Notes under the pieces: model-generated
The model's input: only the letters and a program-made list of their open reading frames with translations
What the model was told of the DNA's origin: nothing
Databases searched by the model: none
Shown: positions 31,970 through 64,000 of the stretch, piece by piece
Position numbering within the stretch: the stretch's first letter is position 1
Layout: each line of letters begins with the position of its first letter
Assembly: GCA_028288725.1 (NCBI GenBank)
Contig: JAQGIC010000133.1
Location: forward strand, 1-64,000
DNA length: 64,000 nucleotides
Direction of reading: 5' to 3'
DNA from: Rhodospirillales bacterium
GTDB lineage: Bacteria; Pseudomonadota; Alphaproteobacteria; ATCC43930; CGMCC-115725
Position numbers and translations under genes: made by a program

Positions 31970-32665
31970 TCATGCCAGGCTGGCGGCGATCGCGCGGGCG
32001 GCGGCTGCCGGATCCGGCGCGTCGGTGATCGGCCGGCCGATGACCAGGCGGCTGGCGCCGGCCTCGATCGCCTGGGCCGGACCCATCACCCGCTTCTGAT
32101 CGCCGACAGCGGAGCCGGCCGGCCGGATGCCGGGCACGACCAGTTGGAAATCCGGGCCCAGTTCGGCGCGGAGCGCCGCGACCTCGAAGGGAGAGCAGAT
32201 GACGCCGTCGAGCCCGCAGGTCCGCGCCAGCGAGGCCAGGCGACGCACCTGGTCACCGGCCGGGCCGCGCTGCCCGATCGCGTCCAGATCGCCGTCGTCG
32301 AGACTGGTCAGCACGGTGACGCCCAGCAGCTTGATCCGATGGCCGGACCGTGCGGCGGCCTCGACCGCCTCCGCGACGGCGGCACGCAGCATCGCAGCAC
32401 CGCCCGAGGCATGGATGGTCAGGAATTCGGGCTTCAGCCCCGCGATGGCGCGGACGGCGCCGGCGACCGTGTTCGGGATATCGTGCAGCTTCAGATCCAG
32501 GAACAAGGGTGCCGCACCGGCGACATCCGCCGTGTTCGCCAGGCCCTGCGCCAGAAAGAATTCCAGGCCCAGCTTCAAGCCGCCGACATGAGGGCTCACC
32601 AGGGCGGCCAATTGTCTGGCGCGCGCGAGGTCGGTCGTGTCGAGGGCCACGAAGACGGGGTTCAT
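31970..32665 (-). CDS. pyrF: Orotidine-5'-phosphate decarboxylase
   Basis: This 231-residue enzyme makes UMP. The catalytic Lys/Asp array is in FLDLKLHDIPNT, with VALDTTD at the start and GRPITDAPDP at the phosphate site. The ATG at 32665 overlaps the stop of the upstream oxidase by four bases. Ten bases separate it from trpF, so pyrimidine and tryptophan genes share a transcript. Confidence 0.95.
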   Translation of the reverse strand: MNPVFVALDTTDLARARQLAALVSPHVGGLKLGLEFFLAQGLANTADVAGAAPLFLDLKLHDIPNTVAGAVRAIAGLKPEFLTIHASGGAAMLRAAVAEAVEAAARSGHRIKLLGVTVLTSLDDGDLDAIGQRGPAGDQVRRLASLARTCGLDGVICSPFEVAALRAELGPDFQLVVPGIRPAGSAVGDQKRVMGPAQAIEAGASRLVIGRPITDAPDPAAAARAIAASLA

Positions 32666-33765: not shown

Positions 33766-33798
33766 GGTCTTCCCTTTAGCCAGTGCCACAATATCCAC

Positions 33799-48378: not shown

Positions 48379-49432
48379 GTGGAGATCGACATGACCGCCT
48401 CATCGGGGGACCGGACGTCGGAACGCGAGGCGTTCTACGACCGCATCAGCACCAAGAATTTGACGCCGCTCTGGCTGTCGCTGGCCGAACTGGTGACGCC
48501 CGAACCACGTAGCCAGTGCCGGCCGGCGTCGTGGCAGTTCGCCGACATCCGTGCGGCGATGATGGAGGCCGGCGGCCTGATCACGGCCAAGGAGGCCGAG
48601 CGCCGCGTACTGGTTCTGGAGAACCCCGGTTTGCGCGGCCAGTCGAAGATCACCACCGATCTCTATGCCGGCGTCCAGCTGGTGCTGCCGGGCGAGGTGG
48701 CCCCCGCCCATCGCCATACCCAGACCGCATTGCGCTTTGTGCTGGAGGGCAGCGGCGCCTACACCGCCGTCGATGGCGAAAGGACCATCATGCACGAGGG
48801 TGATTTCATCATCACCCCGCCCATGACCTGGCATGATCACGGCAACGAGTCCGACGCGCCGATCTTCTGGCTGGATGGGCTCGATATCCCGGTCGTGCAG
48901 TTCCTGGACGCATCCTTCGCCGAGCATATGGGCGAGGATATGCAGCCGATCACAAAGCCGCTCGGCGACAGCGATTTCCGCTATGGCGCCAACCTGCTGC
49001 CGATCGACCAGGCGCGCGGCAGCGGCACCTCGCCGGTGTTCAACTATCCCTATGCCCGGACCCGCGAGGCGTTGGAACGCATGCGCCGAGCCGAGGCGTG
49101 GGACCCGTGCCACGGGCTGAAGATGCGCTTCAGCAATCCGGTGTCCGGCGGCCATGCCATGGCTACCATGGGCACCTTCATCCAGCTGCTGCCCAAGGAT
49201 TTTTCCACCTCGGCCTATCGCTCGACCGACGCCACCATCTTTGCGCCCATCGAGGGCCGGGGCCGGACCTTCATCGGCGATGATTTCGTGGTCGACTGGC
49301 AGAAGCGCGACGTCTTCGTGGTGCCCAGCTGGAAGAAAGTCCGGCACGAGGCGGCAGAGGACAGCGTGCTGTTCTCCTTCTCCGACCGACCGATCCAAGA
49401 AGCCCTCAATCTTTTCCGGGAAGACCGCGGCA

Positions 49433-49440
<8 letters not shown>
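48379..49440 (+). CDS. Gentisate 1,2-dioxygenase
   Basis: This 353-residue bicupin, Fe(II)-dependent ring-cleaving enzyme converts gentisate to maleylpyruvate. Iron ligands are in the N-terminal cupin: PAHRHTQTALRFVLEG (His111, His113) with WHDHG (His152/154) downstream. The second cupin is in the C-terminal half. A GTG start is supported by AAGGAGGA five bases upstream; an ATG at 48391 is possible. It overlaps the fumarylpyruvate hydrolase gene by eight bases. Expression is probably controlled from the palindrome at 48308-48342. Confidence 0.92.
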
Positions 49441-50140
<700 letters not shown>

Positions 50141-50214: not shown

Positions 50215-51423
50215 ATGATGACGGATGCCAGCAAACCCTTCCTGATCGCCGGCGCCGGCATCGGCGGTCTGGCCGCCGCTCTCGGCCTGGCGCGCAAGGG
50301 CCAGCGCAGCATCGTGCTGGAGAAGGCGCCGCAGCTGGGCGAGCTCGGTGCCGGCATCCAACTGGGGCCGAACGCGTTTCATTCGTTCGATCAGCTGGGC
50401 GTCGGCGATGCCGCCCGCGCGATGGCGGTCTATATCGACCAGTTGCGCCTGATGGATGCGCTGACCGCCGAGGAGATCACCCGCATCCCCCTCGACGAAC
50501 CGTTCCGCCAGCGCTTCGGCAATCCTTATGCGGTGGTCCATCGCGGCGATCTGCACGGCGTGTTCCTGCGGGGCTGTCTGGCCCACGAACTGATCGAGAT
50601 CCGCACGTCCAGCGAGGTCGTGGGTTACGAGCAGGACGCATCGAGCGTCACCGCCCGGATCGCCGATGGGACCGCCGTCACCGGCACGGCGCTGATCGGC
50701 GCCGACGGGCTCTGGTCGAACATTCGGCGCCAACTGGTCAAGGACGGCGCGCCGCGCGTGTCGGGGCACACGACCTATCGCTCGGTCATCCCGACCGAGC
50801 AGATGCCCGAGGATCTGCGCTGGAACGCGGCCACGCTCTGGGCCGGCCCCAAATGCCATATCGTGCATTACCCGCTGTCGGACTGGAAGCTGTTCAACCT
50901 GGTCGTGACCTTCCACAACGACGCGCCGGAGCCGGTCGCGGGGAAGTCCGTGTCGGAGGAAGAGGTCCGCGCCGGCTTCGAGCATATCCACCCGAAGGCG
51001 CGCGACATCATCAGGCACGGCAAGAACTGGAAGCTGTGGGTGCTGTGCGACCGCGAGCCGATCGAGAACTGGGTCGATGGCCGCGTGGCCCTGCTGGGCG
51101 ATGCCGCCCATCCGATGATGCAGTATTTCGCCCAGGGCGCCTGCATGGCGCTGGAGGACGCGGTCTGCCTGGCCGACAAGGTCGCCAACTTCGACCGGGT
51201 CGAGACGGCGCTGGAGCAATATCGCCAGCAGCGGGTGCTGCGCACGGCACGGGTGCAACTGCAATCGCGCGCGATCGGCGACCATATCTATCATCCGGCC
51301 GGCGCTCACGCACAGCTGCGCAACGCCATCCTCGGCGCCAAGTCGCCGGAGCAGATGTACAACGACCTGGCCTGGCTTTACGGGGGGAGCGGGCTCGACA
51401 GCAGCCCGGTGGCGGCGGCTTAG
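50215..51423 (+). CDS. 3-hydroxybenzoate 6-monooxygenase (FAD-dependent)
   Basis: This 402-residue class A flavin hydroxylase has the FAD fingerprint FLIAGAGIGGLAAALGLARKG, the DG motif ALIGADGLWSNIRR and GD motif VALLGDAAHPM. The sequence YFAQGACMALEDAVCLA after it is distinctive of 3-hydroxybenzoate 6-hydroxylases (NagX/MhbM/XlnD) as opposed to salicylate 1-hydroxylase. Product is gentisate, used by the enzymes just upstream. The ATG follows GACGAGGGAACGA. Salicylate 5-hydroxylation is not its family's chemistry. Confidence 0.88.
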   Translation: MMTDASKPFLIAGAGIGGLAAALGLARKGQRSIVLEKAPQLGELGAGIQLGPNAFHSFDQLGVGDAARAMAVYIDQLRLMDALTAEEITRIPLDEPFRQRFGNPYAVVHRGDLHGVFLRGCLAHELIEIRTSSEVVGYEQDASSVTARIADGTAVTGTALIGADGLWSNIRRQLVKDGAPRVSGHTTYRSVIPTEQMPEDLRWNAATLWAGPKCHIVHYPLSDWKLFNLVVTFHNDAPEPVAGKSVSEEEVRAGFEHIHPKARDIIRHGKNWKLWVLCDREPIENWVDGRVALLGDAAHPMMQYFAQGACMALEDAVCLADKVANFDRVETALEQYRQQRVLRTARVQLQSRAIGDHIYHPAGAHAQLRNAILGAKSPEQMYNDLAWLYGGSGLDSSPVAAA

Positions 51424-51899
51424 TCGCCGGCGGCCACTTCCTCCAGACGGCGAAGGGGAGCGCTGGTGACGTCATTATTCACCTGGCCCATCCGATCCAG
51501 CAACCGAACGAAGATCTCGCGCTCGTCTTTGGTCAGCGGGGCCATGATGCGTTCCTGCACCCGTTCGACCAGCGGCGTGATCTTGCGCAGCAGTTCGCGA
51601 CCCTGGTCCGACAGAAACAACAGTTTTTGCCGCCGGTCCTCGGCGCCCGCCTTGCGGGTGACGAGGCCTCGGGTTTCCAGCCGCTCGATGACGTTGCCGA
51701 TCGTGGAACGGTCGAAGGCGATCAGGGCCGACAGACGGGTCGCGTCCACACCGGGACGCTCCTCGATCGCGACCAGGGCGGAATATTGGACAGGAGTGAC
51801 GTTGTAATCCGCGCATTCGTTCACGAACAAGGCCCAGGAAATCTGGTGCGCGCGGCGGATCAGATGCCCCGGCTTCGCATAGAGATCTCTAAGGGACAT
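51420..51899 (-). CDS. MarR-family transcriptional regulator
   Basis: This 159-residue winged-helix regulator has VTPVQYSALVAIEERPGVDATRLSALIAFDRSTIGNVIERLETRGLVTRK, then the wing GAEDRRQKLLFLSDQG. It is embedded in the gentisate block, convergent with the hydroxylase gene and divergent from the SDR gene, the usual position of aromatic-acid-responsive MarR repressors. The frame is open upstream to 52121, but MSLRDLYAKPG at 51899 is the natural start. It may bind the ATTGRCMGMAYRC motif. Confidence 0.9.
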   Translation of the reverse strand: MSLRDLYAKPGHLIRRAHQISWALFVNECADYNVTPVQYSALVAIEERPGVDATRLSALIAFDRSTIGNVIERLETRGLVTRKAGAEDRRQKLLFLSDQGRELLRKITPLVERVQERIMAPLTKDEREIFVRLLDRMGQVNNDVTSAPLRRLEEVAAGD

Positions 51900-52093: not shown

Positions 52094-52891
52094 ATGGGTC
52101 GCCTTGAAGGAAAAGTCGCAATCATCACCGGCGGCGCGCGGGGCCAGGGCGAGATCGAGGCCCGGATGTTCGTCCGGGAAGGCGCTGCCGTCGCCATTTG
52201 CGACGTGCTCGACGAGCCCGGCGAAGCGGTCGCGAAGTCGATCCAGGCCGAGGGTGGCGAAGCGCGCTATTTCCATCTCGATGTGACCCAGCAGGCGGAC
52301 TGGGAACGGGTCGTTGGCGAGGTCGTCAAATGGAAGGGACGCCTGACCACTCTGGTCAATAATGCCGGCATACTCAACCGGACCGGGACGATCGGCACAC
52401 CGCTCGACCATTGGAACAGGGTTCTGGCCGTCAACCTGACCGGCGCGTTTCTCGGGCTGCAGACGACCGCGCCGGCCATGCGCGAATCCGGGGGCGGCGC
52501 CGTGGTCAATATCGCCTCGGTCGCAGCCCACGCCGGACACAACGATCCGGCCTATAGCTCGACCAAGGCGGGGCTGCTGGGGCTGACGCGCAGCGCGGCC
52601 ATGGAGTTCATCGACTGGAACATCCGGGTCAATGCGATCTGCCCGGGTATCATCGTGACCGGCCTCAATGCCGGCGGCGCCCATCTCGAGCCGTGGCGTC
52701 GGGGGACCCCGATGGGCCGGTACGGCACGATCGAGGAAGCCGCGAACGTCGTGCTCTTCCTCGCGTCGGACGAGGCGAGCTTCATCACCGGGGAGGACAT
52801 CGCGGTCGATGGCGGATTCAAGGCCGGTGGTGCCGCGCGGCGGATCTCGATCGAGGCCGGCATCGACCTGACCGCATCTCCGGCCCGGTGA
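52094..52891 (+). CDS. Short-chain dehydrogenase/reductase, hydroxysteroid-dehydrogenase-like
   Basis: This 265-residue classical SDR has IITGGARGQGEIEAR (about 10-24), NNAGILNRTG, catalytic Ser in NIASVAAHAG and Tyr-x3-Lys in AYSSTKAG. The GGARGQG form is typical of the 3alpha/20beta-hydroxysteroid and cyclic-alcohol dehydrogenase branch. In this cluster it would oxidise a ring hydroxyl to a ketone, setting up the substrate for the nearby flavin desaturases. Substrate inferred only. Confidence 0.87.
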   Translation: MGRLEGKVAIITGGARGQGEIEARMFVREGAAVAICDVLDEPGEAVAKSIQAEGGEARYFHLDVTQQADWERVVGEVVKWKGRLTTLVNNAGILNRTGTIGTPLDHWNRVLAVNLTGAFLGLQTTAPAMRESGGGAVVNIASVAAHAGHNDPAYSSTKAGLLGLTRSAAMEFIDWNIRVNAICPGIIVTGLNAGGAHLEPWRRGTPMGRYGTIEEAANVVLFLASDEASFITGEDIAVDGGFKAGGAARRISIEAGIDLTASPAR

Positions 52892-52896
52892 CAGCC

Positions 52897-54033
52897 ATGA
52901 CCGCCCCGCTGTTGTTCACGCCGCTCACCTTGTGCGGCGTGGAACTGCCCAATCGGATCGTGGTCTCGCCGATGTGCCAATATTCGGCGATCGACGGGAT
53001 GGCGAATGATTGGCACCTGGTGCATCTCGGCAAGTTCGCCCAGGGCGGGGCCGGCACGGTGTTCGTCGAGGCGACGGCGGTCCGGGCCGACGGCCGGATC
53101 ACGCATGGGGATCTCGGCCTCTGGTCGGACGAGCAGATCATCCCGCTGCGCCGGATCGCGGACTTTCTCGTCGGCCAGGGTTCGATCCCGGCGATTCAGC
53201 TCGGCCATGCCGGCCGGAAGGCCAGCACGCAACGGCCCTGGTACGGCAATGGTCCGCTGGGGCCGGAGGATATGGCGCGCGGCGACAATTCCTGGGCGGT
53301 TGTGGCACCGAGCCCTATGCCGACGGACAGCGGCTGGCTCATGCCCACCGAATTGACCGTCGCCGATCTCGATGGCCTGTGCGATGCGTGGAAGTCCGCC
53401 ACGCTGCGCGCGCTCGAAGCGGGCTTCCAGGTCATCGAGATTCATGCCGCCCACGGCTATCTGCTGCACGAATTCCTGTCGCCGCTGTCCAACTTTCGCA
53501 CGGACGCCTATGGCGGCGAAATCGAGGGCCGGATGCGCTTCCCGCTCGAGGTCGTGGAGGCCGTTCGGTGTGTGCTGCCGAAAGACCTGCCGCTGTTCGT
53601 CCGCATCTCCGCCATCGATGGGGTGGATGGGGGCTGGTCGCTTGACGATTCGGGCGTATTCGCCCGCGCGCTGAAGGTGCGCGGGGTCGATGTCGTCGAT
53701 TGCTCGTCCGGCGGTGTCGGCGGACCGGTGACGGCCGCCCGCATCCCACGCGGGCCCGGCTTCCAGGTACCCTTCGCCGCCAGCGTCCGGAAAGCCGCCG
53801 ACGTCAGGACAATGGCGGTCGGACTGATCCTCGATGGGCAGCAAGCCGAAGACGCTCTTCAAAGCGAGCAGGCCGATCTGATCGCCATCGGTCGCGAGGT
53901 CCTGTTCAACCCGAACTGGCCGGTGCAGGCGCGCGCTGCGCTTGGGATCGAGGGCTCGGAGAATTGGACGAATTGGCCGGCGCAATATGGCTGGTGGCTG
54001 GAACGCCGTGAGCGGATCTTGCGCCGCTCGTAA
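52897..54033 (+). CDS. Old-Yellow-Enzyme-family NADH:flavin oxidoreductase (YqjM-like)
   Basis: This 378-residue FMN TIM barrel has the YqjM-class signature SPMCQYSA near residue 26, the substrate-binding histidine pair in EIHAAHGYLLHEFLSPLSNFRTDAYGG, and VRISAIDG. It reduces, or in reverse desaturates, alpha,beta-unsaturated ketones. It begins five bases after the SDR gene. Members that dehydrogenate cyclohexanone-type rings exist, so it may take part in ring aromatisation here. Confidence 0.9.
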   Translation: MTAPLLFTPLTLCGVELPNRIVVSPMCQYSAIDGMANDWHLVHLGKFAQGGAGTVFVEATAVRADGRITHGDLGLWSDEQIIPLRRIADFLVGQGSIPAIQLGHAGRKASTQRPWYGNGPLGPEDMARGDNSWAVVAPSPMPTDSGWLMPTELTVADLDGLCDAWKSATLRALEAGFQVIEIHAAHGYLLHEFLSPLSNFRTDAYGGEIEGRMRFPLEVVEAVRCVLPKDLPLFVRISAIDGVDGGWSLDDSGVFARALKVRGVDVVDCSSGGVGGPVTAARIPRGPGFQVPFAASVRKAADVRTMAVGLILDGQQAEDALQSEQADLIAIGREVLFNPNWPVQARAALGIEGSENWTNWPAQYGWWLERRERILRRS

Positions 54034-54198: not shown

Positions 54199-54828
54199 AT
54201 GAAACTTCACGGCTATTTTCGCAGCAGTGCTGCCTATCGCGTCCGCATCGCCCTCGGCCTCAAGGGCCTCGAAGTCGGACAGGCGTTCCATGTCCGTAAA
54301 GGCGAGCAGCGCGCGCCCGACTATCTCGTGCTGAATCCGCAAGGCCTGGTTCCCGTCCTGGAGACCGATACCGGCGCGCTGACCCAATCGCTCGCCATTC
54401 TCGAATGGCTCGATGAAACCTATCCCGAACCGGCTTTGCTGCCGAAGGCCAACCCGTTCGTCCGCGCCCAGGTGCGTGCCTTCGCGCTTGCCATCGCCTG
54501 CGATATCCATCCGCTGCAGAACCTCCGGGTTCTGGCGCGCCTGAAAGAGATCGGGCTCAACGCGGCCGCGCAGGAAGCCTGGCCGCGTTGGGTCGTCGGC
54601 GATGGCCTGGCTGCCTGCGAACAGCTTCTGGTCGGCCAAACGGGGCCGTTCTGCTTTGGCGCCACACCGACGATCGCGGATATCTGCCTGGTGCCTCAAA
54701 TGGGCAGCGCCCGTCGCTTCAATGTCGATATCACCGGCTTTCCGCGCCTTCGGGCGGCAGAAGCGGCTTGCCTCGCGTTGCCTGCCTTCACGGCGGCCGC
54801 GCCCGACAAGCAGCCCGATGCGGAATAG
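54199..54828 (+). CDS. Zeta-class glutathione transferase, probable maleylpyruvate isomerase
   Basis: This 209-residue protein begins with the zeta-class motif YFRSSAAYRVRIALGLKGL and has the thioredoxin-like LVPVLETDTGALTQSLAILEWLDE block (Gln-Ser glutathione contacts). The all-helical C-terminal domain contains GATPTIADICLVPQM. NagL/MaiA enzymes isomerise maleylpyruvate (or maleylacetoacetate) to the fumaryl form. Beside gentisate dioxygenase and fumarylpyruvate hydrolase, maleylpyruvate is the natural substrate. Confidence 0.88.
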   Translation: MKLHGYFRSSAAYRVRIALGLKGLEVGQAFHVRKGEQRAPDYLVLNPQGLVPVLETDTGALTQSLAILEWLDETYPEPALLPKANPFVRAQVRAFALAIACDIHPLQNLRVLARLKEIGLNAAAQEAWPRWVVGDGLAACEQLLVGQTGPFCFGATPTIADICLVPQMGSARRFNVDITGFPRLRAAEAACLALPAFTAAAPDKQPDAE

Positions 54829-54868: not shown

Positions 54869-56374
54869 GTGGTGGCAGTGACCAGAGAACCGGCAATCAT
54901 CCGGGAAGAAACCGACATCGTCGTCGTCGGTGGCGGCGGTTCCGGTTTGACCGCAGCAATCTTCGCCAAGCAGTCCGGCGCCCGGGTTATCCTGCTGGAG
55001 AAGCATACGGAGTTGCGGGGCAGCACCGGTCTGTCGATCGGCTCGATCACCGCGACGGGCACTTGGCACCAGAAACGGGCCGGCATCGTCGATACGACCG
55101 AATCCCATTTCGAGGACATGGCCAAGTTCGCCGGCAAGCTGGCGATCGATGACAACGTGGAACTGCGGCGTATCCTCGTCGAGAACGTGACGGAAAGCGT
55201 GAACTGGCTCATGGGCCTTGGCGTGACCTTCTATGGTCCGATGCCGGAGCCGCCGCATAGCCAGCCGCGCATGCACAACATCCTGCCGAACTCGCGCGCC
55301 TACATCTATTTCGTGTCGCGCGAGGCGCAGCGGGTCGGCGTCGATGCTCGGGTCAACGCCTCCGTCAGCAAGCTGCTGATCGAAGATGGCCGAGTGGTCG
55401 GCGTTCGCGTCAGCATCGCCGGCAGGGAGCATGAGATCCGGGCGCGTCGCTCGGTCATCCTGGCGACAGGCGACTATTCGTCCAGTGCCGAGTGGAAAGG
55501 CCGGTTCAACCCGGCGGTCGCCGATGTGGATGGCGTCAACACCACGAATGTCGGCGATGGCCACCGATTCGGCGAGGAATTGGGGGCCTCGGTAAAATTC
55601 GGCCAAGTCGTCTATGGCCCCAATCTCCGCTTCATGCCGCCGCCGAAGCCGAGCGTCCTGCTACGGCTGCCGCCGTATCCCTGGTTCACCAAGGCGATGC
55701 GTTTCGCCCTGGAAAAGCTGCCATCCCGACTGTTGCGCCCGTTCATCCTGTCCTTCGTCACGACCTATCTCAGCCCCGAACCCAGCATGTTCAAGCAGGG
55801 ATCCATCCTCGTGAACAAAGAGGGCCGGCGCTTTGCGGACGAGTTGGACAAGCCGACCTATGCGTTCGGCAAGCAGACGGACAAAGTCGGCTTCATCGTG
55901 TTCGACGAACCCGTCGCCAAGAAATTCCGGGGCTGGCCCTACTTCATATCGACGGCGCCCGGCGTCGCTTATGCCTATCTGCAGGACTACAAGCGCACCC
56001 GCCCGGATCTCTATCACAAAGCCGGCACGATCGCCGGGCTTGCCGCCTCGATCGGCGTCCCGGTCGCGGCCATGGAGGCCGAGATCAAGGCGTACAACGC
56101 CTCCGCTCCCGGCACAGGCCGTCCGAAGATCGAAAGGGGTCCGTTCTATGCGCTTGGCCCGGTCAAGAGTTGGATCATCCTCACCGACGGCGGCCTCACC
56201 GTGAACCGGAACCATCAGGTGACGCGTGCCGACGGCAGTGCCATTCCAGGCCTCTATGCGGTCGGCTCGGTCGGACAGGGTGGCCTGCTGCTCGAGGGCC
56301 ACGGCCATCATCTCGCGTGGGCCTTCACCTCGGGTCGGCTCGCCGGCCGCCACGCCGCAGGAGCCAATTCGTGA
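54869..56374 (+). CDS. FAD-dependent fumarate-reductase/KstD-type oxidoreductase 1
   Basis: This 501-residue FAD_binding_2 flavoprotein has DIVVVGGGGSGLTAAIFAKQSGARVILLEK at the N-terminus, the ATGDYSSSAEWKGRF block and a C-terminal LYAVGSVGQGGLLLEGHGHHLAWAFTSGRLAG FAD-binding end. Such proteins introduce or reduce C=C bonds next to a carbonyl. The GTG at 54869 has a GGGAGAAG ribosome-binding site; an in-frame ATG at 54818 overlaps the GST gene. One of three related flavoprotein genes in the cluster. Confidence 0.82.
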   Translation: MVAVTREPAIIREETDIVVVGGGGSGLTAAIFAKQSGARVILLEKHTELRGSTGLSIGSITATGTWHQKRAGIVDTTESHFEDMAKFAGKLAIDDNVELRRILVENVTESVNWLMGLGVTFYGPMPEPPHSQPRMHNILPNSRAYIYFVSREAQRVGVDARVNASVSKLLIEDGRVVGVRVSIAGREHEIRARRSVILATGDYSSSAEWKGRFNPAVADVDGVNTTNVGDGHRFGEELGASVKFGQVVYGPNLRFMPPPKPSVLLRLPPYPWFTKAMRFALEKLPSRLLRPFILSFVTTYLSPEPSMFKQGSILVNKEGRRFADELDKPTYAFGKQTDKVGFIVFDEPVAKKFRGWPYFISTAPGVAYAYLQDYKRTRPDLYHKAGTIAGLAASIGVPVAAMEAEIKAYNASAPGTGRPKIERGPFYALGPVKSWIILTDGGLTVNRNHQVTRADGSAIPGLYAVGSVGQGGLLLEGHGHHLAWAFTSGRLAGRHAAGANS

Positions 56375-56414
56375 CCTCCAGCGGCATTTGCCGGAAAGAT
56401 GCTAGAAGGCAGAT

Positions 56415-56440
56415 ATTGACCGCATACATTTCTTCTGTAT
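56415..56440. promoter_or_regulatory. Shared operator-like motif (site D)
   Basis: ATTGACCGCATAC (56415-56427) is identical to the left arm of site A in 12 of 13 bases. ATACA and TGTAT (56436-56440) form inverted arms around a 7-bp spacer, as in site A. A TATTCT hexamer 16 bp after TTGACC would serve as a -10 box. It lies about 205 bp ahead of the small membrane-protein gene. Confidence 0.65.
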
Positions 56441-56644
56441 TCTTACTGAAATTACGCGGCGTCGTTGCCGCGAAACGCGCTGCGAAAACGAGCGGCGGCG
56501 CCTCCGGGCGCCATTGGTGAGGAACGGCCGGGAAGCAATCTCCAGGACTCGCTGTCCCCCGGCATCTGCTGATGCCGGGGCACCAAAGCGAGCGTCTTGA
56601 TCCGGCATGCTCCGCCCCGCCTGATTTTTGGATCGGAGAGCAAT

Positions 56645-56887
56645 TTGGCTAACGGCGACTATCAGATACCTACCTATCCGACCGTCAAATTCCTGGTCGC
56701 TCACGGCATGCCGTTGGCAATCCTGATCGGCCTGGCCCCCCTGGTCATTGCCGTTGTCCTCGTCGTCCTCGGCTGGTCGGCGTGGGTGATTGCCGCCGGC
56801 GTCGGGATCAGCCTCGTGCTGGGCGTCGTCCTCGTCAGCTACGTCGAAGTTCTGCGCGTCATCTCCGACACTCTGATGCCGAAGTAA
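56645..56887 (+). CDS. Small two-helix membrane protein
   Basis: This protein of about 80 residues is probably initiated at TTG (56645), which follows GGATCGGAGAGC. Two hydrophobic helices are visible (MPLAILIGLAPLVIAVVLVVLGW and AWVIAAGVGISLVLGVVLVSYV). The frame is open to an ATG at 56597. No family was recognised. It precedes a flavoprotein gene by 44 bp and could anchor it or pass electrons to the membrane, but this is speculation. Confidence 0.65.
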   Translation: MANGDYQIPTYPTVKFLVAHGMPLAILIGLAPLVIAVVLVVLGWSAWVIAAGVGISLVLGVVLVSYVEVLRVISDTLMPK

Positions 56888-56931
56888 GGCGCGCGTCGGT
56901 CGTTGATAAACGTGCTGTTAGGGAGGTTGCT

Positions 56932-58365
56932 ATGACGGGAACTGAGCAGATTGATGTCGTCGTCGTCGGCGCCGGGCTGGCCGGTCTGACGGCCGGCATC
57001 CGGGCCGCCGAAGCGGATCTGCGTGTCCGGGTCATCGAGCAGAGCACGGACGAGGCCTATCTCTGCAACAGCCGCTATACCGGCGGCCTGTTCCACATCG
57101 CCATGGAAGACATGACCGGCGATGCCGCCTGGGTCCGCGCCAACATCGAGCGCGCGACGCGCGGCGAAGGGAACGGCGAGTTGGCCACGGCCCTGGCGTC
57201 GAATGCCAAGCGAACGCTGATTTGGCTGAAGCAACAGGGTGTGCGGTTCATCACCGCCGGTCCCGACGGCCTGCGCCGCAATTCGCTGGCGCCGCCGGGC
57301 GTCCGCCAGACGGGCCTGCATTGGCAGGGCCGCGCCGGCGACGTGATGCTCCGGACCCTCGCCGACGCGCTTCGACGCCGAAGCGGCACGCTGACGCGCG
57401 GGGTCGCCGCTCAAAGCCTGGTGATGGAAGACGGCCGCTGCGTCGGCGTCCGGGTTCTTGAGAACGGTCAAGCATCCGAGATCCGCGCCCGTTCCGTCGT
57501 GCTGGCCGACGGCGGCTTTCAGGCCAATGCGGATCTGGTCAAGCGCTTCATCTCGCCGGCACCGGACCGCCTGTTGATGCGCAACGCGCGCACCGGCCAA
57601 GGCTCGGGCCTGAAGATGGCCGAGGACGTCGGCGCGTCGCTGGTCGGGACCGAGAGTTTCTACGGTCATATTCAATATCGCGAGGCCATGACGGACGAAC
57701 GTTTCTGGCCTTACCCGGTGCTCGACTCGCTGGCGACGGCGGGCGTCGTGCTCAACAGCGACGGCGAACGCTTCTGCGACGAAGGCTTGGGCGGCGTCTA
57801 TGTCACCAATGCCATTGCCAAGCTGGCGGACCCCCTGTCGGCGGTCATCCTGTTCGACGACGCCATCTGGAACGGCCCCGGCACCGACTGGCTCCTGCCG
57901 GCGAACCCCTTCTTGCTGAATGCCGGCGGCAAGCTGATCTCGGCCCCGACCATCGAGCAGCTGGCCGCACAGCTTTCGCTGCCGGCGGACAAGCTCCGGG
58001 CGACGATCGACGGCTACAACTCGGGCGTCGCGGCGGGACAGATGGTAGCGGCCCCCCCTCGAACGACCAGCCCCTATAAGCCCTGGCCGGTCGCCAAAGG
58101 CCCATTCCATGCCATCCCGGTTTGTGCCGGCGTGACCTATACCATGGGCGGCATCGCGACCAACGCGAAGGCTCAGGTTCTCTCTCAGGGCGGCGCGGTC
58201 ATTCCTGGCCTCCTCGCGGCCGGCGCCACGACTGGCGGTCTGGAGGGCTTCAGCTTCTCCGGCTACTCGGGCGGCCTGTCGAAATCCAGCGTGTTCGGCC
58301 TGATCGCCGGCGACACCCTGGCCGAGACGCTGTCCGGCACTGCGCGCGCCGCGCAGAGCGCCTGA
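56932..58365 (+). CDS. FAD-dependent fumarate-reductase/TcuA-type oxidoreductase 2
   Basis: This 477-residue FAD_binding_2 protein has DVVVVGAGLAGLTAGIRAAEADLRVRVIEQ, ADGGFQANADLVKRF and the C-terminal GVTYTMGGIATNAKAQVL and GLEGFSFSGYSGGLSKSSVFG. Overall it resembles tricarballylate dehydrogenase (TcuA)-like flavoproteins. GGGAGG precedes the ATG. It is followed nine bases later by the third flavoprotein, so a two-subunit or two-step desaturation is possible. Confidence 0.82.
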   Translation: MTGTEQIDVVVVGAGLAGLTAGIRAAEADLRVRVIEQSTDEAYLCNSRYTGGLFHIAMEDMTGDAAWVRANIERATRGEGNGELATALASNAKRTLIWLKQQGVRFITAGPDGLRRNSLAPPGVRQTGLHWQGRAGDVMLRTLADALRRRSGTLTRGVAAQSLVMEDGRCVGVRVLENGQASEIRARSVVLADGGFQANADLVKRFISPAPDRLLMRNARTGQGSGLKMAEDVGASLVGTESFYGHIQYREAMTDERFWPYPVLDSLATAGVVLNSDGERFCDEGLGGVYVTNAIAKLADPLSAVILFDDAIWNGPGTDWLLPANPFLLNAGGKLISAPTIEQLAAQLSLPADKLRATIDGYNSGVAAGQMVAAPPRTTSPYKPWPVAKGPFHAIPVCAGVTYTMGGIATNAKAQVLSQGGAVIPGLLAAGATTGGLEGFSFSGYSGGLSKSSVFGLIAGDTLAETLSGTARAAQSA

Positions 58366-58374
58366 GGAGCCGTT

Positions 58375-60138
58375 ATGTCCGCGATAGGGAAACAGCCCGT
58401 GTCCGTCGAAACCTTCGACCGTGAGGTCGACTATCTCGTTGCCGGCGCCGGCCCCGGCGGCATGACCACCGCGCTGGTCGGCAAGCTTGAAGGCATGGAT
58501 GTCCTGCTCTGCGAGAAATCCGATCAGATCGGCGGCACCGCCGCGACCTCTGCCGGCAGCCTCTGGATTCCCGGCAATAGTCAGAGCCGCGACGCCGGGT
58601 TCGACGATACGGTCGAGCAGGGCGAGATCTACATGGACGCGCTGGTCGGCGGGGAAACCAATCGGACCTTGCGGACCGCCTATCTGCAGACCGGTCCTGA
58701 AGCCATCGATTACCTGATGGCGCGGACCGACGTTCAGTTCATCCCCTGCGGCCTCCATCCCGATTACCAGTCCAACCGGCCCGGCGCCGCCAAGGCCGGG
58801 CGCGCCATCGTGCCGAAAGGGTTCGACGGCCGCCTGCTTGGCAAAGACTTCGAGCGGGTCCGTCCACCGATCGCCGAGTTCATGGTGTTCGGCGGCATGA
58901 TGGTCGGCAAGGACGACATTCCGCGGCTGCTCGGCAGGTTCAAGACCGTCGGCAATTTCATCTATTCGGCCAAGCTCTTTGCCCGCTACCTCAAGGACCG
59001 GATGAGCTTCACGCGCGGCACCCGCGTGGTCATGGGCAACGCCCTCGTCGCCCGGCTGTTCTACAGCCTGCGCAAGGCGAACGTGCCGATCCTGTTCGGG
59101 GCGCGCATCATCGAGTTGATCAAAGACGAGACCGGCGTCGCCGGCGCCGTGATCGAGCAGGGCTCGATGAAGATCCGAGTCCGCGCGCGAAAGGGCGTGG
59201 TGCTGGCGACCGGCGGCTACGGCCATAACAAGGAATTCCGTGAGGAATTCATGCCGCAGCCGATCCCTTACCTGTCGCTCGCGGCCGGCACCGACACCGG
59301 CGACGGCATGTCGATCGGCAAGCAGTTCGGCGCGCGGATCGCGCCGGAGGAACATGGCAGCGGCGCCTTCTGGACGCCGGTGTCGATCACCAGGCGCAAG
59401 GACGGCAGCAAGGGGCTATTCCCGCACCTGTCGCTGGACCGGGCCAAGCCCGGCTTGATCGCGGTCAACAAGGCGGGACGCCGGTTCGTCAACGAGGGGG
59501 CGTCCTATCACGACTTCGTCGAGGCGATGTTCGAGACGAACAAGCTCAGCCCGACCATCCCGGCCTATCTCATCTGCGAGACCGCCTTCGTGCGGAAGTA
59601 TGGTCTCGGCGCGATCCATCCCGGCACGCGCGATCTGTCGTCGTTCGAGGCGAGCGGCTACATTACGATGGCGCCCACGCTGAGACAGCTCGCGAGCAAG
59701 ATGGGGATCGACCCGCAAGGACTCGATGCAAGCGTTGCCCGGCATAACGGCTTTGCCGTCACCGGCCCGGACCTGGATTTCGGCAAGGGCGATACCGAGC
59801 TGAACCGCTTCAATGGCGATGCGAGGAACAAGCCGAACCCCTGCCTGGCCCCGATCATGTCCGGGCCCTTCTGCGCCATGGAGGTTTGGCCGGCGGAAAT
59901 TGCTTCCAGCACCGGCCTGTCCACCGACGAGAACGCCCGCGTGCTGAATACCGAGGGCCAGCCGATCGGCGGCCTCTACGCCTGTGGCAACGACATGGCC
60001 TCGATCATGGCCGGAACCTATCCTGGGCCGGGAACGACGCTCGGCCCCGCCATCACGTTCGGGTATCGGGCGGCGCTCCATGCCGCTCACTCGGGCCCTC
60101 CCGACGCTGAGCGTCCAAAACTCAAGATCGTTTCTTAG
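58375..60138 (+). CDS. FAD-dependent KstD-like dehydrogenase 3
   Basis: This 587-residue flavoprotein has YLVAGAGPGGMTTALVGKLEGMDVLLCEK and GGTAATSAGSLWIPGN at the N-terminus, ATGGYGHNKEFREEF, and the strongly KstD-like end YACGNDMASIMAGTYPGPGTTLGPAITFGYRAALHA. 3-Ketosteroid and cyclic-ketone delta1-dehydrogenases share this layout. In a cluster with no other steroid genes, a smaller cyclic ketone is a likelier substrate. GAGGAGC precedes the ATG. Confidence 0.85.
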   Translation: MSAIGKQPVSVETFDREVDYLVAGAGPGGMTTALVGKLEGMDVLLCEKSDQIGGTAATSAGSLWIPGNSQSRDAGFDDTVEQGEIYMDALVGGETNRTLRTAYLQTGPEAIDYLMARTDVQFIPCGLHPDYQSNRPGAAKAGRAIVPKGFDGRLLGKDFERVRPPIAEFMVFGGMMVGKDDIPRLLGRFKTVGNFIYSAKLFARYLKDRMSFTRGTRVVMGNALVARLFYSLRKANVPILFGARIIELIKDETGVAGAVIEQGSMKIRVRARKGVVLATGGYGHNKEFREEFMPQPIPYLSLAAGTDTGDGMSIGKQFGARIAPEEHGSGAFWTPVSITRRKDGSKGLFPHLSLDRAKPGLIAVNKAGRRFVNEGASYHDFVEAMFETNKLSPTIPAYLICETAFVRKYGLGAIHPGTRDLSSFEASGYITMAPTLRQLASKMGIDPQGLDASVARHNGFAVTGPDLDFGKGDTELNRFNGDARNKPNPCLAPIMSGPFCAMEVWPAEIASSTGLSTDENARVLNTEGQPIGGLYACGNDMASIMAGTYPGPGTTLGPAITFGYRAALHAAHSGPPDAERPKLKIVS

Positions 60139-60197: not shown

Positions 60198-60266
60198 ATG
60201 AGCGTTAGAGCCTCGGCTCGCCTACGCGGACGTGGCGTTCCCAGAGCGGGGTGCGCGCCATGTTAG
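60198..60266 (+). CDS. Possible 22-codon leader peptide ahead of livH
   Basis: ATG at 60198 follows a very good Shine-Dalgarno (GGAGGAAG). The frame encodes a 22-residue, arginine-rich peptide (MSVRASARLRGRGVPRAGC, then APC) and its stop TAG overlaps the ATG of the permease gene (ATGTTAG). This would couple leader and permease translation. Coding status is uncertain; a mis-sited ribosome-binding site is the alternative. Confidence 0.4.
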   Translation: MSVRASARLRGRGVPRAGCAPC

Positions 60267-61108
60267 TGCAAATCCTGAACGGGCTCGTTTATGGCGGCAT
60301 GCTCTATGTGCTGTCGGTAGGCCTCGTGCTGATCTTCGGGCTACGGCGTGTGGTCAACTTCGCCCATGGCGGGCTCTTCATGCTCGGGGCCTACGTCGGC
60401 TATGCGGCCTATGGGATCGGTGGCTTCTGGGCTGCGATCGTGGCTTCGATCGTCGTGCTCGGCATCTTCGGCATTGTGCTCGACCGATTGGTATTCCGTG
60501 CGCTGCAAAAGCAGGAACCTATGGTCACGGTTCTAGTGACGTTCGGCCTGCTGATGGTGCTGGAGGACTTCGTCCAGTCCGTCTGGGGTAAGGATCTGCT
60601 GACCTTCACGACGCCGCCGAGCCTGTCAGGCACGGTAGCGATCGGCGCGGTCAGCTTCCCCGTTTATCGCCTGGTGGTTATCGCCGCTGCGGTGATCGTA
60701 GTCGGCGGCCTGAGTGCGTGGCTGAAACTGAGCCGCGCTGGCCTCTACGTCCGTGCTTCGAGCGTCGATCCGGTGACGACCGCGATGCAAGGCGTCGATA
60801 CCGAGCATCTGAGCGCGCTCGTGGTGGGTGTCGGTGCGGCACTTGCCGGCTTGTCCGGCGTCATTGCCGCTCCGCTCCTCGCACTCTCGCCTTCCATGGG
60901 CAGTACCATCCTGATTGAGAGTTTCATCGTCGTGGTGACTGGCGGGCTCGGCTCGTTCACCGGTGCCTTCGTCGCCGCCATGGTGATCGGTCAACTGCAT
61001 AATCTCGGCGTGGTTTTCGTGCCGAATATCGCCTCCATGGTCCCTCTCATTCTCATGGTCGGCGTGCTGATCTGGCGTCCGGCCGGCCTCCTGGGCGCAA
61101 AAGCATGA
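60260..61108 (+). CDS. LIV-type ABC transporter permease (LivH-like)
   Basis: This 282-residue inner-membrane permease has about eight helices and the family block FGLRRVVNFAHGGLFMLGAYVGY. GIVLDRLVFRALQKQEPMVTVLVTFGLLMVLED is also typical. A GTG at 60251 is an alternative start. It is first of four tightly overlapping transporter genes. Given the neighbours, an aromatic or alicyclic carboxylate is a likelier cargo than a branched-chain amino acid. Confidence 0.9.
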   Translation: MLVQILNGLVYGGMLYVLSVGLVLIFGLRRVVNFAHGGLFMLGAYVGYAAYGIGGFWAAIVASIVVLGIFGIVLDRLVFRALQKQEPMVTVLVTFGLLMVLEDFVQSVWGKDLLTFTTPPSLSGTVAIGAVSFPVYRLVVIAAAVIVVGGLSAWLKLSRAGLYVRASSVDPVTTAMQGVDTEHLSALVVGVGAALAGLSGVIAAPLLALSPSMGSTILIESFIVVVTGGLGSFTGAFVAAMVIGQLHNLGVVFVPNIASMVPLILMVGVLIWRPAGLLGAKA

Positions 61109-62121
61109 GCAGTTCATCCAACATGCCGGCTGCAACCGTCAACAGACCGATGCCCCGCAAGCGGCTTTCGGCGTTTCCTTTCGTGCTGATCGCTATCGCT
61201 GTTTTCGGCTGCATCCTGCCGACGGCGGTCAACTCGCCGCTGCTGCTAACCCTGCTGACGTCGGCCACGATCAACGGCATCTTGGCGACAGCGGTCGGAC
61301 TGCTGATACGCCATAGTGGTTTGGTTAGCTTCGGCCATGCGGCATTCTTCGGTGCCGCTGCCTATGTCATGGTGCTGGCGCTGGAGCGGACCGGCATTTC
61401 CGTCGAAACCGTGATCATTGCGGCGATAGTCTTGCCGACGATCTGTGCGTTCGGTTTGGCGTTCGTCATGCTCCGTGTCTCTGGCGTGGCGTTTTCAATG
61501 CTGACGCTCGCCGTCGCCCAGGCTTGCTATGAGTTGGTGATGCGGTGGCGCGAGTTGGCCAATGGCGAGGACGGCCTCGCGGTCAAGCTGCCGAATCGCG
61601 TTTTCGGGCTTGCCGTCGGCGTGTTTCAGCGACCGGACAGCATGTTCCTGATCTGCTGGATTATCCTGATGATCGTGCTTCTCGGTCTCTGGTTCTTAGG
61701 CCGAAGCCACTTCGGAACTTTAACGCTAGCTATCCAGGACAACGAGGAACGCGCCCGTTTCATCGGGTACGAAACCACCGTGCCGCGCGCGATCATCTTC
61801 GCCCTGTCGGCCGCCGTGGCGGCAACGGCCGGCGTGCTGTTCTCGCTCTACAACGGCTTTGTGACCCCGGACACGCTGCATTGGACGCTTTCGGGCGACG
61901 CTTTGATCATGGCGATCATCGGCGGCGCTCGATCGGTCTGGGGACCAGCGCTGGGCGCAGTCGTCTTCTTCTTCATCCGAGATGCCGCGGGCGGCTACAC
62001 CGAGCACTGGCCGGCGCTCATCGGCATCACTCTGATCCTGGTGACGGTCGCAATGCCGACAGGCCTCAGCGGGGCTTTCGCCCTGGTTCGGACACGGTTC
62101 GGAGGAGCACGAAATGGCTGA
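61105..62121 (+). CDS. LIV-type ABC transporter permease (LivM-like)
   Basis: This 338-residue permease has about nine or ten helices. GLVSFGHAAFFGAAAYVM and the cytoplasmic loop AIQDNEERARFIGYETTVPRAIIFALSAA are typical of LivM. It overlaps livH by four bases (ATGA) and the ATPase gene by eight. It forms the pore together with the LivH-like protein. Confidence 0.9.
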   Translation: MSSSSNMPAATVNRPMPRKRLSAFPFVLIAIAVFGCILPTAVNSPLLLTLLTSATINGILATAVGLLIRHSGLVSFGHAAFFGAAAYVMVLALERTGISVETVIIAAIVLPTICAFGLAFVMLRVSGVAFSMLTLAVAQACYELVMRWRELANGEDGLAVKLPNRVFGLAVGVFQRPDSMFLICWIILMIVLLGLWFLGRSHFGTLTLAIQDNEERARFIGYETTVPRAIIFALSAAVAATAGVLFSLYNGFVTPDTLHWTLSGDALIMAIIGGARSVWGPALGAVVFFFIRDAAGGYTEHWPALIGITLILVTVAMPTGLSGAFALVRTRFGGARNG

Positions 62122-62827
62122 AACCTGGAGCCTCGAAGCGCGCGGCCTGACCAAGCGCTATGGTGGGTTCTTCGCGCTCAACGGCGTCTCGATCACCCTG
62201 AAACGCGGTGAAATCCGAGGCCTGATTGGATCGAACGGCGCCGGCAAGTCTACCTTCATGGACGTGCTATCCGGTCGTGGATCGAACCTCGGCGGCGAAG
62301 TCTTCCTGGAAGGGCAGAATATCACCCCTCTGAGCGAGCGTGCCCGACGGCGCGCTGGTTTGGCCCGGTCGTTCCAGAAAACGAACATCTTCCCGGAATT
62401 GACCGTCCGTCAGCAGGTTGAACTCGCGGCCCGTGCGGCCGAAGAAGACAACAGCGAGGACGTGCTGCGAGAATTGCACCTGCTGCAATATGCCGACCGG
62501 AAAGCCGCCGACATCTCCTATGGCGACCAGCGTCGTGTCGATCTGGCTTTGGCTCTGGTCGGCCATCCGAAAGTGCTGTTGCTGGATGAACCCGCAGCCG
62601 GGCTGACCATGGGTGAGTCGCTCGCCCTGGCCCATTTGCTGCGCGATCTGGCCGAGCGATGGGACCTGACGGTCCTGCTGGTCGAGCACGACATGGAAGT
62701 CATCTTCTCTATCTGCAGCCATATCACCGTGCTCCACCTCGGGCAGCTTCTGACCGAGGGAACGCCCGGAGAAGTGCGGGCCAACCCCGAGGTCGTGCGT
62801 GCCTATCTCGGGAGCGCAGCGGCATGA
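62114..62827 (+). CDS. LIV-type ABC transporter ATPase (LivG-like)
   Basis: This 237-residue ATPase has Walker A IGSNGAGKST, the signature region ISYGDQRRVDLALAL and Walker B VLLLDEPAAGL, with VEHDM as the switch. LivG-type helicals (RSFQKTNIFPELTV Q-loop) are present. It overlaps the following ATPase gene by four bases. Confidence 0.92.
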   Translation: MAETWSLEARGLTKRYGGFFALNGVSITLKRGEIRGLIGSNGAGKSTFMDVLSGRGSNLGGEVFLEGQNITPLSERARRRAGLARSFQKTNIFPELTVRQQVELAARAAEEDNSEDVLRELHLLQYADRKAADISYGDQRRVDLALALVGHPKVLLLDEPAAGLTMGESLALAHLLRDLAERWDLTVLLVEHDMEVIFSICSHITVLHLGQLLTEGTPGEVRANPEVVRAYLGSAAA

Positions 62828-63519
62828 CATTGCTCCAATTTGAAGGCGTTTGCTCGGCCTACGGCTCGGCTCGGGTACTTCACGATGTTTCGCTGTCCGT
62901 ATCCAAGGGTGAGCGCGTCGCCATCCTTGGCCGCAACGGCGTCGGGAAGACCACTGTCGTCAACACCTGCCTCGGGCTCGCCTCGATGCAAAGCGGCCGC
63001 ATGGCGTTCCTCGGCCGGGACGTCAAGGCGGTCCGAACCTTTACGGCGGCGCGTTCCGGTCTCTCGGTCGTTCCGCAGGGGCGGCGCATCGTCTCAAACT
63101 TGACGGTTCGCGAAAACCTGATTCTGGGCGGCGCACCTCAGCGCAAGGGCCGCTGGAGTGTCGATGAGGTGTTCCGGCTGTTTCCGATCCTGAAGGAACG
63201 GGCGGAAACTCCCGGCACGGCCATGAGTGGTGGCCAGCAGCAGATGCTGGCGATCGGGCGCGCACTGATGTCCAACCCCGACCTGCTGATCCTCGACGAG
63301 CCGAGTGAAGGCCTGGCGCCGGTTGTCGTGGATGAGCTTGGCGAGACACTCGTCAAACTCGCCAGCGGGGGCATGAGCATCCTGCTGATCGAACAGAACT
63401 TCGGTCTCGTCCACAAAGTAGCCGAACGCTACTACGTCCTGTCAAAAGGATCGGTGGTCGAGGAGGGGAAACTCGCCGGCCTATCAATGGAAACGCTCAA
63501 AAAACACGTCGCCGTTTAA
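62824..63519 (+). CDS. LIV-type ABC transporter ATPase (LivF-like)
   Basis: This 231-residue ATPase has Walker A LGRNGVGKTT, signature MSGGQQQMLAIGRAL and Walker B LLILDEPSEGL. VPQGRRIVSNLTVRENL is a LivF landmark. It pairs with the LivG-like subunit. Confidence 0.92.
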   Translation: MTLLQFEGVCSAYGSARVLHDVSLSVSKGERVAILGRNGVGKTTVVNTCLGLASMQSGRMAFLGRDVKAVRTFTAARSGLSVVPQGRRIVSNLTVRENLILGGAPQRKGRWSVDEVFRLFPILKERAETPGTAMSGGQQQMLAIGRALMSNPDLLILDEPSEGLAPVVVDELGETLVKLASGGMSILLIEQNFGLVHKVAERYYVLSKGSVVEEGKLAGLSMETLKKHVAV

Positions 63520-63578: not shown

Positions 63579-64000
63579 ATGCCTACAAGACGTCAAGTCC
63601 TGTTCGCCTGTGCAGCAACTGTCGCACTCGGTCTGTCGGGCGTTGCTTCCGCAGCGGACAAGGCGCCGCTGCTGATCGGCGTGCCGACCGCTCTGACCGG
63701 TCCCTATGGCGACCTCGGCGAGCAGGTCCGCCGGGCTGTCAATTTTGCTGTAGACGAGGCCAATGAATCCGGTGGCGTTGATGGCCGCAAGGTTCAGGTC
63801 AGCTTTCTTGATACCCAGGCCAAGGCCGAGTTGGCACGCCAGCAGGGCGAGAAGCTCTCGCTGGGCGGATACAAGATCCTGACCGGTTCAATCGCGTCGG
63901 GCGAAGCGCTGGCGATCGGGCCAATGCTTGAGCGCTGGGACGCAATGTTTGTCGCCACGATCAACAAGGCTGACGACATCACCGGCAAGTCCTGCAACAG
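63579..64000 (+). CDS. LIV-type ABC transporter substrate-binding protein (partial)
   Basis: The first 140 residues are present; the gene runs off the window. A signal peptide (MPTRRQVLFACAATVALG, ending ASA|AD near residue 26) is followed by the Leu/Ile/Val-binding-protein fold: IGVPTALTGPYGDLGEQVRRAVNFAVDEANESGGVDGRKV and a GSIASGEALAIGP ligand-site segment. It delivers substrate to the four transporter components upstream. GGGGAGG precedes the ATG. Confidence 0.92.
   Translation, partial: MPTRRQVLFACAATVALGLSGVASAADKAPLLIGVPTALTGPYGDLGEQVRRAVNFAVDEANESGGVDGRKVQVSFLDTQAKAELARQQGEKLSLGGYKILTGSIASGEALAIGPMLERWDAMFVATINKADDITGKSCN

Follow-up and report, generated by a model that had tools for sequence, protein, structure and literature searches.

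A conserved two-helix membrane protein co-inherited with one FAD_binding_2 flavoprotein subfamily, in a gene cluster that may convert an alicyclic acid to 3-hydroxybenzoate

FAD_binding_2 dehydrogenases are common in catabolic gene clusters, and what accepts their electrons in nature is often not known. The excerpt of the cyclohexanone dehydrogenase (CDH) study used here describes assays with the dye DCPIP (PMC10966990). In the para route for cyclohexanecarboxylate (CHC), as outlined in the available part of its description, a P450 oxygenates carbon 4, the resulting 4-oxo acid is aromatised by two consecutive desaturases, and the end product is 4-hydroxybenzoate (PMC9795900). Here, we describe a cluster in a 64,000-nucleotide stretch of a Rhodospirillales bacterium (the window; part of contig C69 of a 5.5-Mb genome in 146 contigs) that encodes, all in the same direction, three FAD_binding_2 flavoproteins (FP1, FP2, and FP3) and, between FP1 and FP2, a small membrane protein (SMP). 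SMP is a real, conserved two-helix protein under purifying selection, and its co-inheritance with the FP2 subfamily makes it a concrete candidate for a missing membrane link and suggests a very simple way of delivering electrons into the membrane. A second prediction from the cluster is an aerobic route that leads from alicyclic acids to 3-hydroxybenzoate, as opposed to the 4-hydroxybenzoate of the described CHC aromatization. Among the titles and abstract openings that made up our literature sample, there was no description of an SMP-FP2 pair or of a 3-oxo/3-hydroxy alicyclic route forming 3-hydroxybenzoate; part of one further text (PMC5906575) was consulted for that route.

The predicted cluster resembles the chc pathway of Sinomonas cyclohexanicum (ChcB1/B2 and ChcC1/C2, enzyme names taken from NCBIfam) in joining a dehydrogenase to consecutive desaturases that turn a ring acid into a hydroxybenzoate, the substrate of a further hydroxylation (PMC9795900, same excerpt). 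It differs in its exit through 3-hydroxybenzoate to gentisate (with another 3-hydroxybenzoate hydroxylase in Neorhizobium), in having three flavoproteins and an added SMP, and in the absence of a P450 from the contig. FP1 to FP3 and the short-chain dehydrogenase SDR1 all score below the NCBIfam cut-offs for Chc enzymes; against the ChcC1 and ChcC2 models NF053676 (cut-off 1000) and NF053677 (cut-off 900), FP3 reaches 319 and 429 bits, FP2 87 and 93 bits, and FP1 87 and 82 bits. With KstD1 (4C3X), AcmB (7P18), and CDH (8AM3-8AM8), the likeness is confined to FP3, which has the four residues Tyr/Tyr/Tyr/Gly of KstD1 and, like AcmB, an insert of roughly 50 residues, whereas the base tyrosine column is absent in FP1 and FP2 and the identified neighbours indicate hydroxybenzoate rather than steroid. 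The tricarballylate dehydrogenase system TcuAB supplies the top NCBIfam model for FP2 (TcuA, NF006130), although FP2, like FP1 and FP3, falls below its cut-off and is 31% identical to the TcuA of L065. There, the membrane/Fe-S protein TcuB is encoded directly beside the flavoprotein gene; here, a two-helix SMP without Cys clusters takes that place. Flavocytochrome c fumarate reductase and urocanate reductase share the fold and FAD domain of FP2 (Z 32-36) and are what FP1 and FP2 match best among PDB sequences, but FP1 and FP2 lack the haem domain and do not conserve the fumarate-binding Arg and His positions. Succinate dehydrogenase (SDH, complex II) is similar in broad concept, with a small membrane anchor linking a flavoprotein to the quinone pool, but the cluster has no Fe-S subunit or haem ligands, and SMP is unmatched in Pfam and in PDB sequences and reaches E 3.5 at best in fold comparison.

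A sequence-only reading of this DNA had described three FAD_binding_2 proteins of 501, 477, and 587 residues and an 80-residue two-helix frame, and the lengths, coordinates, PF00890 matches, and hairpin model bear this out. SMP has two hydrophobic stretches, and its AlphaFold model is a hairpin of helices 12-41 and 47-77 (mean pLDDT 88). We aligned 28 homologues with 15-61% identity to the window SMP, 27 of them at 28% or more, most of which adjoin an FP2. The resulting alignment of 29 sequences and 84 columns has a [YF]P...G motif near the N-terminus in most members, the two hydrophobic stretches, and a C-terminal tail conserved around E68, D75, L77, and P79, the last of which is invariant. 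Comparison of the window gene with its orthologue in G673 gave dN 0.33, dS 0.90, and dN/dS of about 0.37; the small frame is therefore both conserved and under purifying selection, which supports the earlier reading on this point. SMP had no match in Pfam or NCBIfam (E 0.001) or among PDB sequences (E 10), and five of its homologues had none in Pfam. There is no conserved His or Cys across the 29 sequences, the most frequent His column being occupied in 13 and no His or Cys column in more, for which reason we dropped SMP as a carrier of haem or Fe-S; the putative anchor shows neither kind of relay. If SMP lies on an electron path, it would thus be a docking or anchor subunit rather than a redox carrier. 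An apparent fusion of SMP to another protein in L061 was rejected: the long frame is the shadow of a neighbouring gene, and the separate SMP gene overlaps FP2 by 4 bases.

The association of SMP with FP2 was followed over 25 distinct FP2 places, the window included, with duplicates and matches of 31% or less left out. At 15 of them (window, L011-L014, L016, L019, L020, L037, L039, L040, L041, L044, L048, and L049), SMP and FP2 share a strand and are about one gene apart at most; three more are cut by contig ends (L017, L021, and L022) and were counted in the total without being judged. SMP precedes FP2 in most cases, follows it in Cupriavidus, and follows FP1 in L016 and L019, and it accompanies FP2 next to either Liv-type or BUG-type transporter genes. 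In G007, FP2 and SMP are on different contigs. Among 385 genomes sampled from the window's class, FP2 occurs in six and SMP in three, all three with FP2 adjacent; without the window genome, both SMP genomes carry FP2 (2/2) versus FP2 in 5 of 384 (chance 1.4e-4), and the three FP2 genomes of the six that lack SMP belong to one genus. We also sampled 369 genomes that we call Burkholderiales because the seed, G780, is the Paraburkholderia genome from which L011 comes. At E 1e-4, 16 of them had an SMP match, and 15 of these matches are credible, with E 6.6e-19 or lower; at E 1e-50, FP2 was present in 15, at 33 or more places with every E value under 1e-121. It is the same 15 genomes in both cases. 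Without the seed genome, the agreement is 14/14 among 368, with a chance of 1.3e-25 that assumes independent genomes, which they are not (the Burkholderiales SMPs form five clusters at 60% identity, and the sequences of L016 and L019 hardly differ). In those 15 genomes, a same-strand FP2 stands no more than 1.5 kb from SMP in nine, an FP1-type gene in four (three on the opposite strand; one only as fragments), and neither in two, one of them on a contig only 3.2 kb long. Because SMP and FP2 occur in the same genomes also when unlinked, their tie is independent of adjacency. Each genome had a single reported SMP match and from one to at least four FP2s; for the large samples, the best 4 FP2 and best 14-15 SMP candidates were scored per genome, so that copy numbers are minima and absences rest on the best-ranked candidates. 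By this distribution of sequences, SMP is a candidate for a dedicated membrane partner co-inherited with FP2. The sequence-only reading, which is partly supported as a whole, is clearly supported in the test that it asked for, co-occurrence of the small protein with a flavoprotein, except that the partner is chiefly FP2 and not the trio.

Several decisions define these counts. L023-L026 were left out as non-orthologues of FP2 (24-30% identity), as was the SMP match in G784 (E 9.7e-5), which covers positions 14-67 only and lies inside a 598-aa frame. Plasmid records entered as the best 9 of 460 matched (H1-H9, 43% or more), those from H10 onward being at 31% or less; L038, L051, and L052 duplicate L020 and L037, and L059 and L061 are the same places as L044 and L048. 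The first SMP profile, A1, matched 6 of 398 genomes in a phylum sample, the only credible match being the window's own full-length one, and a sample of 61 relatives gave two matches, in the window's genome and G007. A tblastn search of plasmids with SMP at E 0.01 found nothing, which reflects a limit of sensitivity, since a later profile search did detect more diverged SMPs in plasmid records. When the flanks of SMP-less FP2 genes (L015, L018, L050, and L060), together with L058, were scanned for other small membrane frames, L058 yielded the one weak candidate. The SMP gene of G007 (L027 8435-9596) stands beside an elongation factor Ts gene (PF00889), with no cluster query matched nearby. The FP2 of G621 (L060 7575-12662) has a different partner set, being without SMP and near genes for a UbiD-family decarboxylase and an AbrB-duplication membrane protein. 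In Azospirillum brasilense MTCC4038, FP2 (L051 9938-11295) appears as two overlapping alignment pieces, from a frame break or sequencing error, with no annotated gene.

All three flavoproteins are FAD_binding_2 members far above the PF00890 gathering score of 20.4 bits (Table 1), and their pairwise identity of 26-30% means that they are not recent duplicates, in agreement with the sequence-only reading. FP3 aligns with AcmB over nearly its full length and with KstD1 and CDH in two pieces. Its residues Y131, Y378, Y549, and G553 align with Tyr119, Tyr318, Tyr487, and Gly491 of KstD1, which we take to be the catalytic set with Tyr318 as the base, and all four are kept in 10 of 10 aligned FP3 sequences, the window's included. 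Three of them also align with the catalytic residues of CDH, as given in the excerpt of that study (PMC10966990). FP3 residues 167-217 (window 58873-59025), about 50 in number, align with AcmB and are absent in KstD1; the title of the AcmB structure paper, as cited in PMC10966990, names a "putative membrane-associated domain." Judged from these aligned active-site residues, FP3 alone of the three is KstD-like. The base tyrosine column holds Pro in FP1 and Gly in FP2, in an alignment at 26-30% identity in which the column could be off. The fumarate-binding Arg402 and Arg544 and the conserved His of fumarate reductases, whose roles we take as understood (Arg402 is also named in PDB titles), were not matched in phmmer alignments of FP1 and FP2. 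The label of KstD/fumarate-reductase type given to the trio earlier thus fits FP3 as a KstD-like enzyme and does not extend to the catalytic residues of FP1 and FP2, whose chemistry therefore has to be read from context. In sequence, FP1 and FP2 are nearer to flavocytochrome c, urocanate reductase, and TcuA, with flavocytochrome c fumarate reductase the top PDB match of FP1; the fold neighbours of the FP2 model (pLDDT 87) are urocanate reductase at Z 35.6, flavocytochrome c at 32-34, and KstD at 32-33.

FP1 and FP2 each carry a distinctive element. A hydrophobic/basic insert in FP1 (residues ~250-305, window 55616-55783; LPP...RPFI.SF.T..L.PEP) is present in 10 of 11 aligned FP1-type sequences, the window's included, and absent in L039; it also occurs in Ancylobacter and Salipiger loci without FP2, and could serve in membrane binding or as an active-site cap. 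No insert of this kind was seen in FP2 in an alignment with FP1, FP3, and TcuA. All 13 aligned FP2s have Cys45 (window 57064-57066) in the FAD-binding loop (YLCNSR), as do nine other records, while the FP2 of L050, also without SMP, has Ala at this position. Cys45 aligns, in a comparison with other FAD_binding_2 proteins, one residue before what we take to be the position of the flavinylated His of SDH, and a covalent flavin or a redox role is possible.

The surroundings of the flavoprotein genes point to the product. In G673, from another family of the class, the order 3-hydroxybenzoate 6-monooxygenase (3HB6H)-gentisate 1,2-dioxygenase (GDO)-fumarylacetoacetate hydrolase family (FAH)-MarR-short-chain dehydrogenase (SDR)-isomerase-FP1-SMP-FP2-FP3-LivH-M-G-F-substrate-binding protein (SBP)-SDR2 (L059) is nearly that of the window, with two differences: no Old Yellow Enzyme (OYE) copy was reported, and 3HB6H precedes GDO. 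Azospirillum argentinense has most of the cluster genes, OYE included, in rearranged order and with gtdA and 3HB6H annotated; FAH and the isomerase were not seen in that stretch. Neorhizobium petrolearium keeps the order SDR-FP1-SMP-FP2-FP3-Liv and has no 3HB6H match within 37 kb, but it has in its place a 648-aa monooxygenase that matches the 3-hydroxybenzoate hydroxylase 2DKH at 899 bits over nearly the whole length. Since two hydroxylases of different length and subfamily, both predicted to act on one compound, accompany the same cassette, the product of the cassette is likely 3-hydroxybenzoate. An SDR, a KstD-type desaturase, and a hydroxybenzoate hydroxylase thus stand together in one cluster, the combination looked for in an aromatization pathway. 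Elsewhere, FP2 occurs with an L015-type FAD monooxygenase (L015, L018, L039, L041, and L050; PRK06126 in L015 and L039), with FP3 also in L015 and L018 and a gentisate-dioxygenase-like cupin in four of these five variants (L015, L039, L041, and L050; none reported for L018). On Cupriavidus pENH92 and at several Burkholderiales loci, the genes near FP2-SMP encode BUG proteins and, depending on the locus, PrpD, SDR, or CoA-metabolism proteins, and none matched the hydroxybenzoate/gentisate queries.

We propose that the cluster encodes a meta-variant of CHC aromatization with SMP as the membrane partner of FP2, a reading whose chances we regard as evenly poised. The substrate would be an alicyclic C7 carboxylate already oxygenated, or becoming so, at C3 (a 3-hydroxy- or 3-oxo-cyclohexane/ene-carboxylate). 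SDR1, which probably oxidises a ring hydroxyl, or SDR2 would convert ring carbon 3 to the ketone; FP3 would take off the hydrogens alpha,beta to the 3-ketone in the manner of KstD, FP2 and/or FP1 may introduce the other double bond(s), and the dienone would tautomerise to 3-hydroxybenzoate. Successive action of the flavoproteins, as proposed in the sequence-only reading, is plausible for three enzymes that have diverged from each other and share a conserved catabolic cluster. 3HB6H would then form gentisate, which gentisate dioxygenase, the isomerase, and the hydrolase would break down. The SMP hairpin would be embedded in the inner membrane, its conserved C-terminal stretch (around E68, D75, L77, and P79) acting as a docking helix, and would keep FP2, and possibly FP1-type enzymes too, at the membrane, where the reduced FAD would be reoxidised, most likely by quinone. 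Tentatively, as a bolder possibility that we would not favour over its negation, SMP may be a shared, cofactor-free quinone-docking subunit, one hairpin of 75-80 residues per cell serving several FP2 (and FP1-type) dehydrogenases in trans. The result would be a minimal flavoprotein:quinone oxidoreductase free of haem and Fe-S, which in this cluster would serve to turn a 3-oxygenated alicyclic acid into 3-hydroxybenzoate.

Several observations weigh against this proposal. Besides lacking conserved His or Cys, SMP gave 12 matches in a fold search with its model, the best at E 3.5. It is not universal among FP2 loci, because six of the 25 FP2 places have no SMP nearby (L015, L018, L050, and L045-L047), and in the three genomes of genus g380 to which L045-L047 belong it was not found genome-wide. 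FP1 and FP2 lack the KstD base, so that desaturation by either is proposed by analogy; the desaturations need two flavoproteins, which makes three one too many, and neither the third nor OYE has a fixed role in the scheme. No P450 gene is present on C69, and as the genome's two PF00067 matches lie on contigs C114 and C115, the ring oxygen would come from elsewhere and the substrate is probably already oxygenated. No gene for electron transfer flavoprotein (ETF) is on C69 either, but a pair on contig C100 makes a soluble route with ETF as acceptor possible. Queries for hydroxybenzoate and gentisate genes had no match at the SMP-FP2 loci L040 and L089-L091, which makes it probable that more than one pathway uses FP2-SMP as a module. 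Finally, the scheme is a prediction built from sequence and structural models.

Some of the same observations would suit other explanations. SMP might be an assembly, stability, or localisation factor of FP2, or part of a metabolon, rather than an electron route, with the flavin reoxidised by soluble ETF or O2. We consider this unlikely, though not greatly so: the absence of conserved cofactor ligands, the single SMP match per genome against several FP2 copies (as for a shared accessory factor), and the ETF pair all fit it, but the ETF genes are not on the cluster contig, and a two-helix membrane hairpin would be an unusual form for a chaperone of a soluble enzyme. It is rather improbable that the flavoproteins act on another substrate, such as a terpenoid- or steroid-like ring, or act reductively (FP1, FP2, and OYE on an unsaturated acid), with the 3-hydroxybenzoate genes mere neighbours. 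The approach of FP2 to urocanate reductase in fold, above the 33 reached by KstDs, the flavocytochrome c fumarate reductase match of FP1, and the FP2 loci without a hydroxybenzoate or gentisate query match point that way; set against them are the near-complete synteny with gentisate genes in G673 and the same genes in Azospirillum, the exchange of one 3-hydroxybenzoate hydroxylase for another in Neorhizobium, and the KstD/CDH residues kept in FP3.

The remaining explanations concern SMP alone. As a small membrane protein often encoded near a BUG binding-protein gene, it could be the small subunit of a neighbouring transporter, like TctB or DctQ, instead of a flavoprotein partner; this is very improbable, and we dropped it, because the transporter type beside SMP varies (Liv ABC or BUG) while FP2 is constant, and the 15 of 369 genomes with SMP are those with FP2, including the ones in which the two are unlinked. 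That SMP is a bystander or a non-coding frame is scarcely credible: we found no point in its favour, and its conservation, dN/dS, plausible ribosome-binding site, and co-occurrence with FP2 all speak against it.

The genes of the cluster are collected in Table 1. FP2 and FP3 are separated by 9 bases from stop to start. The FAH-family hydrolase, whose start codon (49433) was chosen in this analysis, is probably fumarylpyruvate hydrolase by its gene context.

Table 1. Genes of the cluster, with coordinates in the window unless another record is named
Feature	Coordinates	Strand	Evidence
Gentisate 1,2-dioxygenase (GDO)	48379..49440	+	TIGR02272 561 bits vs cut-off 442; identity 51% L059, 66% L037
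FAH-family hydrolase, probable fumarylpyruvate hydrolase	49433..50140	+	PF01557 181 bits vs 23.9; NF007967 144 bits, below cut-off 201; syntenic in L059
3-Hydroxybenzoate 6-monooxygenase (3HB6H)	50215..51423	+	NF006021 575 bits vs cut-off 459; identity 67-73% in L012, L037, L059
MarR-type regulator	51441..51899	-	PF12802/PF01047 above cut-off; 60% identity to annotated MarR of L038
SDR1, short-chain dehydrogenase	52094..52891	+	PF13561; top NCBIfam model ChcB1 219.8 bits, below cut-off 400; identity 65-70% L012, L020, L059
Old Yellow Enzyme (OYE) family flavoprotein	52900..54033	+	PF00724 223 bits; 60% identical copy in Azospirillum cluster L037
Maleylacetoacetate/maleylpyruvate isomerase, GST fold	54199..54828	+	TIGR01262 254 bits vs cut-off 171; identity 68% L059
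FP1, FAD_binding_2, 501 aa, GTG start at 54869	54869..56374	+	PF00890 168 bits
SMP, 80-residue two-helix membrane protein	56645..56887	+	TTG start behind GGAGA stretch; conserved family; AF2 hairpin
FP2, FAD_binding_2, 477 aa	56932..58365	+	PF00890 183 bits; TcuA model 201 bits vs cut-off 369
FP3, KstD/cyclohexanone-dehydrogenase-type desaturase, 587 aa	58375..60138	+	PF00890 263 bits; 7P18 334 bits
LivH-type ABC permease	60251..61108	+	PF02653; identity 68-75% in L012, L020, L059
LivM-type ABC permease	61105..62121	+	PF02653 113 bits; TIGR03408 147 bits, below cut-off; syntenic
LivG-type ABC ATPase	62114..62827	+	PF00005 and PF12399 above cut-off; identity 73-81% L012, L020, L059
LivF-type ABC ATPase	62824..63519	+	identity 69% to L020 LivF
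ABC substrate-binding protein (SBP)	63579..64000, continues past window end (L028:3580-4773)	+	PF13458
SDR2, second SDR, after SBP, beyond window end in contig	L028:4783-5598		PF13561

Elsewhere in the genome, three more long FAD_binding_2 matches lie on other contigs, together with many short ones limited to the first 30-50 model positions. Past the window end on C69, the cluster is followed by three amidohydrolase-family genes (PF01979; L028 5990-11206). Within the window, the minus strand at 32662-33798 encodes a protein with a dinucleotide-binding motif, beside what we take from their sequences to be trpF and trpB genes.

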